Shown piece after piece: positions 47,453-49,378 of a stretch of DNA of 64,000 nucleotides. A model generated the notes under the pieces. That model saw nothing but the letters and a program-made list of their open reading frames with translations. It made no database searches and had not been told where the DNA came from. The translations under genes were made by a program, and so were the position numbers. This DNA comes from Cytobacillus oceanisediminis 2691 (GTDB lineage: Bacteria; Bacillota; Bacilli; Bacillales; Cytobacillaceae), in the NCBI RefSeq assembly GCF_007678455.1, contig NZ_VEEP01000002.1, positions 167,535 to 231,534 of the forward strand, written 5' to 3'. The first letter of the stretch is position 1. Each line of letters begins with the position of its first letter.

Positions 47453-47721
47453 ATCATCACCCGTACCTTGTCTGATTGCTACCATTTTACCTTTTTTTCG
47501 AATAAAAGAATATTATAGACTATCCTGTTTACTTTTTATAAAAATTCACCGTTAACCGCCGATAACTATAGAGACTATTTTTTTCCCAACCTTTTATTAA
47601 AAAAAACACCACAAAAATTGAGAAGATTGTTTATAATTGTTCTGTAAGGTGTTCTTAATATGGAACTATTTTATCAGATTTGTTATGATATAACTATAAA
47701 TTGACAAGGTGTGTGGATACT

Positions 47722-48042
47722 GTGATTGGTGAACGCGTCAAAAAACTTCGACAAGAGAAAAGAATGTCCCTATCCGAGTTGGCTGAGCAAGCTGGCGTCG
47801 CAAAGTCCTATTTAAGCTCTTTGGAACGGAATCTGCAAACGAATCCTTCCATTCAATTTCTTGAGAAGATCGCTGGAGTCCTGAATGTCCCGGTTGATCA
47901 ATTGATCCATGAACAAGTCGATAAAGAAAATATTGATTCTGACTGGGTTAATCTTGTGAAAGAAGCAATGGATTCCGGAATCAGCAAAGACCAGTTCCGT
48001 GAATTTCTCGAGTTCAACAAATGGAAACTCAATAATAAATAA
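47722..48042 (+). CDS. sinR: SinR-like biofilm master regulator
   Basis: A 106-residue repressor almost parallel to B. subtilis SinR: an N-terminal XRE-type helix-turn-helix (KKLRQEKRMSLSELAEQAGV, AKSYLSSLERNLQTNPSIQF) and a C-terminal SinR/SinI helical hairpin (DSDWVNLVKEAMDSGIS, then QFREFLEFNKWK). The GTG start has AAGGTG upstream. SinR represses matrix genes and is neutralised by SinI. Unlike B. subtilis, sinI is not upstream in one operon but convergent downstream. GTTCT motifs at 47639-47657 ahead of the gene could be its own sites. Confidence 0.92.
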   Translation: MIGERVKKLRQEKRMSLSELAEQAGVAKSYLSSLERNLQTNPSIQFLEKIAGVLNVPVDQLIHEQVDKENIDSDWVNLVKEAMDSGISKDQFREFLEFNKWKLNNK

Positions 48043-48046
48043 TCAC

Positions 48047-48076
48047 AAGGGACAGCCATTTCGCTGTCCCTTTTTT
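48047..48076 (+). terminator. Terminator of sinR
   Basis: GGGACAGC and GCTGTCCC arms, then TTTTTT. Confidence 0.92.
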
Positions 48077-48140: not shown

Positions 48141-48269
48141 TTACTCCTGCCTATTGGTCATTAAAAATTTCCTGATTTCTTCTTTATTTATTCCCATCTC
48201 CAATGCTTCCATGATCAGCTGCATCCATTCTGTATCCAATTCTTCGAAAATTACCTGTTCTTTAATCAA
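48141..48269 (-). CDS. sinI: SinI-like antirepressor, TTG start
   Basis: A 42-residue protein. The TTG start has GGGGGG 6 bases ahead. The core ELDTEWMQLIMEALEMGINK followed by EEIRKFLMTN aligns with the SinR-binding helical hairpin of B. subtilis SinI (ELDQEWVALMVEAKEANISP, EEIRKYLLLN). SinI binds SinR one to one and releases it from DNA, switching on matrix genes. The gene converges on sinR and has a cyclic-di-GMP-I riboswitch in its leader, an arrangement I have not seen described. Confidence 0.85.
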   Translation of the reverse strand: MIKEQVIFEELDTEWMQLIMEALEMGINKEEIRKFLMTNRQE

Positions 48270-48285
48270 GTTCTTCCCCCCAAAA

Positions 48286-48386
48286 TACAGTTAGTATCCC
48301 AGGCGGCCCGGCCATCATAGTACTTTTGCACCTTAGATCCGTGACTTTGCGTCCTGGTTTTTCAACCAGTTTGCCTTTATCTGTAC
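48286..48386 (-). promoter_or_regulatory. Cyclic-di-GMP-I (GEMM) riboswitch upstream of sinI
   Basis: Read on the minus strand, the aptamer core is GGCAAAC, then the helix CTGGTT-GAAA-AACCAG with its GAAA tetraloop. Next come GACGCAAAGTC, CGGATCTAAGG and CTATGATGGCCGGGC: the tetraloop receptor (UCUAAG/UAUGA) and the second ligand-binding arm. GTACAG and CTGTA can close the outer stem. The ribosome site GGGGGG of sinI follows within about 10 bases and no clear terminator intervenes, so translational control is likely. The 215 bases further upstream (48387-48601) are AT-rich, with a possible promoter near TACAAT; nothing else is seen there. Confidence 0.9.
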
Positions 48387-48601
48387 CTTTTTGCTTAATC
48401 GTTTACTCCCAATGTCATTGTACCTTGTTCTATATATTTAACATGTAAATATTTGTCGGCGAATTTCTGGAACTATCCTTCTTTTTCTTCCAAACAATTA
48501 CAAATTTATAGATTAAAACATTATTTTTCTGAAAATTTAAATCTTTTTACTAGTATTTTTTGTCGCATCCTATCCTTAAATGTTGAACTCTTTTTTTACA
48601 T

Positions 48602-48817
48602 TCACCCCCATAAATCTGAAGATAAGCCTTTGGACTGTGAAGTTTTTGGATAGGTTTGCCTTTTCCGGCGATGCTTTAGGACTACTTTTTCAAGGTTGAT
48701 GGCATTGAAAAACGGGTACCTTGTTAAATCATTGCCACACACCGGACATAGCCATTCACCCTGTTCACTGCTGCTAAACGAGGGACGATTGCATCGATCG
48801 CAGTTTTTTCTGTACAT
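48602..48817 (-). CDS. Small zinc-ribbon protein, 71 residues
   Basis: Two CxxC pairs, NCDRCNRPSF and WLCPVCGNDLTR, form a treble-clef or zinc-ribbon knuckle in the first 35 residues, followed by a basic segment (KVVLKHRRKRQTYPKTS). AAGGAGG lies 9 bases ahead of the chosen ATG; another ATG two codons earlier is only 3 bases away. I do not recognise the family. It is divergent from the second SinR-like gene, with a large palindrome between them. Confidence 0.6.
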   Translation of the reverse strand: MYRKNCDRCNRPSFSSSEQGEWLCPVCGNDLTRYPFFNAINLEKVVLKHRRKRQTYPKTSQSKGLSSDLWG

Positions 48818-48911: not shown

Positions 48912-48944
48912 CTTAAAAAAGAACAATAATCGTTCTTTTTTAAG
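48912..48944. promoter_or_regulatory. Probable SinR/SlrR operator (13-bp perfect inverted repeat)
   Basis: CTTAAAAAAGAAC-aataatc-GTTCTTTTTTAAG. Each arm contains GTTCTTT, the known SinR recognition heptamer GTTCTYT, in inverted orientation. It lies between the divergent zinc-ribbon gene and the second sinR-like gene, upstream of a TATAAT -10 at 49000. Confidence 0.75.
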
Positions 48945-49036: not shown

Positions 49037-49378
49037 ATGAAGGTTGGAGAGAAGATTAAAAGATTAAGATTGGAAAGAAACTATTCTATTACTGAACTTT
49101 CTCAAAAAGCGAATGTTTCCAAGTCATACCTCAGTTATATCGAAAGAGGCATTCAAGAAAATCCTTCGCTCCAGGTTTTATCACGACTTGCCCACAATCT
49201 GGATACGTCTGTGGAGAACCTGATGGGCCAGCAAACAAAAAGGATTGATTCGATCCCCGTTGATGAGGAATGGATCGGACTTGTTGACGAAGCAATAAAA
49301 AATGGGATCAGCAAAGAAGATTTTTCTTATTACCTTGATTTCATGAAATTCAAGAACCGTATTGATAAAGAAAAGTAG
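49037..49378 (+). CDS. SinR paralogue (SlrR-like regulator)
   Basis: A 113-residue relative of SinR: helix-turn-helix KIKRLRLERNYSITELSQKA and NVSKSYLSYIERGIQENPSL, with the C-terminal oligomerisation hairpin DEEWIGLVDEAIKNGISKED and FSYYLDFMKFKN. In B. subtilis the analogous partner SlrR is repressed by SinR and then titrates it, giving an epigenetic switch. A palindromic GTTCTTT operator upstream fits SinR control here too. TATAAT at 49000-49005 and AAGGAGATAACTAG support the start. Confidence 0.85.
   Translation: MKVGEKIKRLRLERNYSITELSQKANVSKSYLSYIERGIQENPSLQVLSRLAHNLDTSVENLMGQQTKRIDSIPVDEEWIGLVDEAIKNGISKEDFSYYLDFMKFKNRIDKEK

Follow-up and report, generated by a model that had tools for sequence, protein, structure and literature searches.

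The window, by which is meant the whole stretch of 64,000 nucleotides that was analysed, carries a convergent pair of genes, sinI and sinR, and a leader before sinI that holds a riboswitch aptamer, a predicted expression platform and a promoter-like region, as follows.

48452 to 48458, minus strand: CGACAAA, a Spo0A-box-like element (reverse complement TTTGTCG), with conserved box and spaced -10
48417 to 48449, minus strand: putative promoter, TTTACA (48449-48444), 21 nt, then the TACAAT -10 (48422-48417), TACAAT being conserved
48299 to 48385, minus strand: c-di-GMP-I (GEMM-I) aptamer, RF01051 at 80.7 bits
48279 to 48303, minus strand: predicted platform hairpin, CCUGGGAUAC (48303-48294) with GUAUUUUGGG (48288-48279), its base being the CC of the aptamer and Gs of the Shine-Dalgarno sequence (SD)
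48276 to 48281, minus strand: SD GGGGGG, ending 6 nt before the TTG, with G-rich sites likewise in relatives
48141 to 48269, minus strand: sinI, 42 aa, TTG start, Pfam SinI at 50.6 bits and a profile match to 1b0n_B
48047 to 48072, both strands: terminator-like hairpin between sinR and sinI, a 10-pair stem with the T-tract clearer on the plus strand
47701 to 48042, plus strand: sinR, convergent with sinI, HTH_3 and a SinI-type C-terminal domain, matching 1b0n_A

Over the full length of the Rfam c-di-GMP-I model RF01051 (positions 1-87 of 87) the aptamer scores 80.7 bits (cut-off 35; E 2.8e-14, cmscan), and this was the sole Rfam match above the gathering score in the whole 64-kb window. An earlier, sequence-only reading had placed a GEMM core in a minus-strand leader directly before a TTG-start, 42-codon sinI gene, within 48141-48386; these coordinates are correct to within one base, the covariance score it had named as a check lies well above the cut-off, and the GAAA tetraloop and its receptor are visible in the aptamer alignment. 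The assignment of the gene was likewise upheld. It is the next gene after the aptamer, and its product reaches 50.6 bits with Pfam SinI (PF08671, cut-off 31.4), while the 42-aa protein scores 43.4 bits, under the cut-off of 80, with the NCBIfam SinI equivalog NF046031, a model of 58 positions. A profile of 16 SinI-like proteins, the window's included, matches chain B of 1b0n (E 5e-11), the solved SinI-SinR complex in which chain B is SinI and chain A is SinR, and the sinR product matches chain A over query residues 9-112 (130.4 bits, E 3e-37). The SinI of the window would be expected to bind this convergently encoded SinR. By the 1b0n matches the pair consists of the same SinI antagonist and SinR repressor as sinI-sinR of B. 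subtilis, where both genes presumably lie in one operon without a riboswitch, whereas in the window the two are convergent and sinI is preceded by a GEMM-I leader. RF01051 was found in 0 of 14 control genomes, among which we take B. subtilis to be. The c-di-GMP-I class of the aptamer, the identity of sinI and the coupling of the two are strongly supported by the covariance scores and by conservation across many genera.

Numbered by analogy with G20 and C92 of the Vc2 aptamer, the ligand-contact equivalents in the window are G12 (48374) and C83 (48303), and neither varies in any of the 34 leaders aligned, which were hand-picked for diversity. A G at the equivalent of Vc2 G20 is the rule for c-di-GMP rather than 3',3'-cGAMP, so its presence in all 34 fits c-di-GMP as the ligand. 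The available text of PMC4744006 and PMC11218506 gives G20 and C92 as ligand contacts of Vc2. In the 34 leaders, 13 of 28 consensus aptamer pairs hold their pairing despite changes on both sides, which shows that selection on the aptamer continues. The strain's own genome contains six GEMM-I in 4.9 Mb.

Within the family, GEMM-I is present somewhere in 189 of 193 genomes and a SinI-protein match, SinR C-termini included, in 188 of 193. The pairing of the two was followed at 170 SinI-like loci from 165 of these genomes, a non-random sample made up of best-listed or sinR-adjacent matches, the remaining 28 genomes, five of them with no SinI match, lying outside it. Searches with R1, a covariance model built from 30 family GEMM-I including the window's own, used limits of E up to 0.1 in two cases and up to 0.01 in another, and gave a match that was kept at 153 of the 170 loci; a second weak match of L106 (19.7 bits) was left out of the tables, and L111 was counted as negative since its only match (15.5 bits, E 0.078) was dropped. 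An intact SinI ORF lies directly downstream at 152 of the 153 loci (151 by script and L191 by eye), and all 152 ORFs, some of them members of the profile itself, reach E<=1e-3 with the SinI profile A2; at the 153rd locus, L184, a weak aptamer of 21.4 bits precedes a sinI cut by an early stop. Counted by genome, GEMM-I stands immediately before sinI in 150 of 165, which argues that the pairing is not due to chance, and the distance from aptamer end to start codon has a median of 29 nt (151 loci). The pair is present in 21 of the 23 genera sampled from a family of 25, with none in g3 or g13. There was no GEMM-I at the sinI-like gene examined in 15 of the 165 genomes (G003-G007, G016, G040, G041, G050, G058, G064, G067, G122, G170 and G173), in several of which one such gene was looked at. 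A convergent SinR motif occurs within 1200 nt at 138 of 151 loci, and Rfam, run on 20 loci, returned RF01051 for 15, its clan member RF03167 (c-di-GMP-I-GGC) for four and nothing for L184.

Scores with R1 exceed 62 bits in 147 of the 153 kept matches, the lower ones being L064, L070, L075, L089, L184 and L202. Departures from the common form were of several kinds. At L070, L077 and L084 the GEMM-I match extends over 163-165 nt instead of 87 through a lengthened P3 arm. L064, L075 and L089 are of similar build, though their own R1 match covers the 5' part only and regex output had presented them as degenerate aptamers; given the matches of L070, L077 and L084, the entire set is read as GEMM-I in which the P3 arm is long. 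The aptamer match of L202 ends 227 nt before the start codon rather than at about 29, and the insert in its leader resembles, by eye, an intergenic repeat. Aptamers that appear decayed by eye precede sinI at L184, L111, L171, L095 and L104, with the leader hairpin partly kept, which suggests loss of the riboswitch in some lineages.

Beyond the family, the leader-hairpin pattern GCCTGGAATACN{2,9}GTATTTTRGGGGG, which occurs once in the strain's own genome, was searched in 84,980 species genomes and gave 34 matches, all of them with an R1 match upstream and a SinI-like ORF downstream (lowest score 44.8 bits with A2); many of these are species also in the family set, and the two sets are therefore not independent. 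The aptamer abuts the hairpin in 32 of the 34, while L127 and L145 have gaps of 63 and 57 nt between the two, resembling leaders with a long P3 arm. Of 397 genomes of the order, a looser pattern matched 31, of which 12 belong to the family and 19 to other families (f11, f14, f20, f28, f34 and f39). The 18 matches from the five families other than f34 were followed up, and all have an R1 match and a SinI-like ORF, the weakest SinI being that of L241, which scores 31.1 bits with A2 and, against the Pfam SinI cut-off of 31.4, reaches 27.2 bits. In 15 of these 18 the aptamer abuts the hairpin, and the gap is about 70, 78 and 116 nt at L248, L249 and L244. Among 398 genomes drawn from the class the looser pattern gave four matches, all within the order and none outside it, and a reversed control pattern gave none in either the order or the class set. 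Because every one of the 34 pattern matches, and of the 18 from the other families, carries both GEMM-I and sinI, a chance neighbourhood of the two is rejected. The records of L129 and L154 (Chryseobacterium sp. ISL-80 and Pseudomonas sp. ISL-84) contain a Bacillus-type sinI leader and are probably mislabelled.

Upstream of the leader, TACAAT is invariant and GACA is kept before it in 23 upstream regions of g1, g15 and g24. A YGACAWA box with a spaced -10 was found in 86 of 148 upstream regions (of the 151 loci), against 23 of 2960 shuffles, which ignore kinship. TTTACA-TACAAT is absent from a sigma-70 consensus scan, which allows spacings of 16-18 nt only, and is accepted as a promoter because it is conserved across relatives. 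We take TTTGTCR to resemble the Spo0A box, and the 21-nt spacing presumably resembles that of the Spo0A-dependent spoIIG. These features point to a putative Spo0A-activated promoter before the sinI leader, so that transcription probably still answers to Spo0A. Control of sinI by Spo0A in B. subtilis is described in the available part of PMC8876208, and the sequence-only reading had set it against control by c-di-GMP here; the GEMM-I leader fits the latter half, but the either/or contrast is probably wrong, a Spo0A-like box being present as well.

At the end of the aptamer, CCUGGRAUAC can form a stem with GUAUUUURGG, whose final bases begin the SD. In the 34 leaders hand-picked for diversity, 95.5% of 333 cells of this hairpin are standard pairs, against 23-59% when the strands are slid, and 3 of 500 shuffles pair as well as the real hairpin. 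Covariation is weak (a single pair, with two cells changed on both sides, and shuffles as good in 411 and 234 of 500) because the sequence is kept so well: there is hardly any variation in the C-G pairs at either end or in most AUAC/GUAU pairs. The sequence is kept beyond what pairing needs, G-U pairs included, as if the stability of the hairpin were tuned or a protein bound it. In some lineages the stem is kept with changed sequence, such as CUGAAAUUCG/CGAAUUUUAG in L117 and CCAAAAUAC/GUAUUUUUGG in L114. In 92 of 95 unique platforms the aptamer CC forms the base of the minimum-free-energy hairpin, and the hairpins average -10.1 kcal/mol against -6.2 for shuffles, of which 205 of 1900 are as stable. 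The 10-pair hairpin covers the SD in part, about three Gs, and its base and the closed aptamer share C83/C84. Since the first C of the hairpin base is the equivalent of Vc2 C92, ligand and hairpin would compete for one base.

This sharing of bases forms the core of the mechanism that we propose. When c-di-GMP is lacking, C83, C84 and U85 at the 3' end of the aptamer would pair with the SD, forming the base of a hairpin rich in G-U pairs, and the masked SD would allow little SinI to be made. When c-di-GMP is bound, C83 would pair with the ligand and its neighbours would join the closed aptamer, and the hairpin, having lost its base, would free the SD for translation of SinI. To represent the bound state, GCCU was blocked from pairing, in place of folding a ligand complex. 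The model covered 134 of the 151 leaders; in the rest the aptamer-start distance was below 16 or above 45 nt, or the script found no SD. Under the block the mean unpaired probability of the SD rises from 0.41 to 0.76, with gains of more than 0.1 in 118 of the 134 leaders and corresponding losses in five. Across 95 unique leaders, shuffled interiors gain +0.22 against +0.36 for the real ones, and a rise as large as the real one is seen in 547 of 1900 shuffles; part of the gain thus comes from removal of the Cs, and the accessibility figure by itself is modest evidence. For the whole leader of the window, the six SD bases go from 0.00-0.08 (one at 0.98) to 0.27-0.80 unpaired. The g22 leaders L117 and L119 do not gain (from 0.80 to 0.70 and 0.73), and in L107, a leader like that of Bacillus methanolicus MGA3, accessibility falls from 0.59 to 0.26.

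The opposite direction of control, in which the ligand-closed aptamer stacks a 7-bp hairpin beside the SD, or another bound fold masks the SD, and c-di-GMP lowers SinI, is an unlikely alternative. The inner hairpin GGAAUAC/GUAUUUU does often persist beside the SD in the bound-state model, and the five leaders that lose accessibility would suit it, but the 118 that gain do not, and the hairpin base uses the very C that a bound ligand would occupy. Acting on an anti-repressor, such a switch would moreover make c-di-GMP oppose matrix formation, contrary to its usual role of favouring matrix. Slightly less likely again is control of transcription or RNA stability rather than translation, with the hairpin as a processing or pause site or a protein site. 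This would explain why its C-G ends and AUAC/GUAU pairs are conserved beyond pairing, and the available text of PMC11218506 describes mixed transcription-translation control for Bc1 of B. thuringiensis; against it, the hairpin is followed by no U-tract and contains the SD, 6 nt from the start codon, and an intrinsic terminator between aptamer and sinI was sought and rejected, no terminator-like site being listed there on the minus strand. A relic aptamer that has lost ligand binding, leaving sinI under Spo0A alone as in B. subtilis, is very improbable, for although a few aptamers before sinI have decayed, that of the window and 147 of the 153 kept matches score highly and 13 of 28 consensus pairs are maintained through changes on both sides.

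The element is, judged by its sequence and conservation, a real c-di-GMP-I riboswitch for sinI that has hardly been described as a circuit, and its action is most likely that of a translational ON switch with Spo0A as a second input. In the circuit that we consider probable, transcription of sinI starts at a promoter that probably needs Spo0A~P, and c-di-GMP would then permit translation of SinI, which would bind SinR and release its targets, in this strain probably the tasA matrix operon, such that high c-di-GMP and Spo0A~P together would favour matrix. The strain's genome has 13 GGDEF matches, 12 of them above the cut-off, and a TasA-family gene (PF12389, 298 bits) that lies behind a signal-peptidase-like gene (PF10502) and a 287-aa ORF with no Pfam match. 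By position we take these to be tasA, sipW and, in the tapA place, the 287-aa ORF. Three GTTCTYT sites, which we assume to be SinR boxes, occur in 8 kb here, two of them between the 287-aa ORF and its upstream gene. Beside the TasA-family gene there is a second, weaker PF12389 match (L272, 1944-2597, minus strand) that ends in an LPXTG anchor.

A broader form of the proposal, held tentatively, is that in the whole order a single ancestral RNA wires SinI/SinR to c-di-GMP, as an AND of Spo0A~P at transcription and c-di-GMP at translation, and that the riboswitch-free sinIR of B. subtilis is the exception. Many soil bacteria related to this strain share the arrangement, which is thus probably a usual means by which they switch on biofilm formation. 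Biofilm is promoted by c-di-GMP in many bacteria, but in the Gram-positive model B. subtilis its link to matrix control is weak. A c-di-GMP sensor in the sinI mRNA, present in no fewer than six families of a single order, would couple the second messenger directly to SinR, would be a compact example of a riboswitch whose ligand-binding base itself masks the ribosome site, and would mean, if true, that the textbook sinIR picture from B. subtilis has been drawn from the exception.

The sequence-only reading had known of no description of a GEMM-sinI link; this does not hold, as Table 4 of PMC4342826 (2015) includes, under '(c-di-GMP)-sinI', a putative c-di-GMP riboswitch upstream of the B. methanolicus sinI gene BMMGA3_08510. 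The entry, for the same GEMM-I before sinI in strain MGA3, is a row in a table of predicted riboswitches, and mechanism, conservation and pathway are not treated in the available text of that paper. The MGA3-like leader L107 has RF01051 at 82.2 bits, a hairpin of the same kind and a convergent sinR. Among the literature matches listed, supplements and most subscription papers aside, no further description was found, and the available parts of PMC10240345, PMC7793685, PMC8876208 and PMC11218506 contain no GEMM-sinI link. The pair itself has hence been listed once before, and no earlier description was found of its breadth, its expression platform or the two-input model. In B. thuringiensis, high c-di-GMP raises sinI and spo0A according to the available text of PMC7793685, a direction that agrees with the ON model; that text names no riboswitch for sinI.

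Bc1 and Bc2 of the B. cereus group and Vc1 and Vc2 of V. cholerae belong to the same aptamer class, with equivalent ligand-contact bases, and Bc1 shares the GAAA tetraloop and receptor of the window aptamer (available text of PMC11218506 and PMC4744006). The platforms differ: that of Bc1, as described there, is long with two terminators, whereas the window has a short SD-masking hairpin directly on the aptamer end, and Vc1, unlike the window leader, has no apparent terminator or anti-SD. Mutation of the C92 equivalent in Vc1 was without effect on a reporter in the available text of PMC4744006, which counts against an ON model based on the ligand-contact C.

Further features lie upstream of the sinI leader. 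A second SinR-like gene occupies 49037-49378, and the two SinR-like proteins of the window score 64.9 and 66.6 bits with the SlrR model, far under its cut-off of 250. At 48602-48817 on the minus strand there is a gene for a 71-aa zinc-ribbon-like protein (CxxC...CPxC) with a weak Auto_anti-p27 match under the cut-off, and 22 of 23 loci have, by motif, a protein of this kind encoded upstream of their sinI leader. Between this small gene and the divergent second SinR-like gene is a perfect inverted pair, AAAGAAC-N7-GTTCTTT (48918-48938), which is SinR-box-like. Single GTTCTYT sites in the window are near chance expectation (26 against 20.2); the inverted pair occurs once in the window and in none of 100 shuffles, and 21 of 23 related loci have it too.
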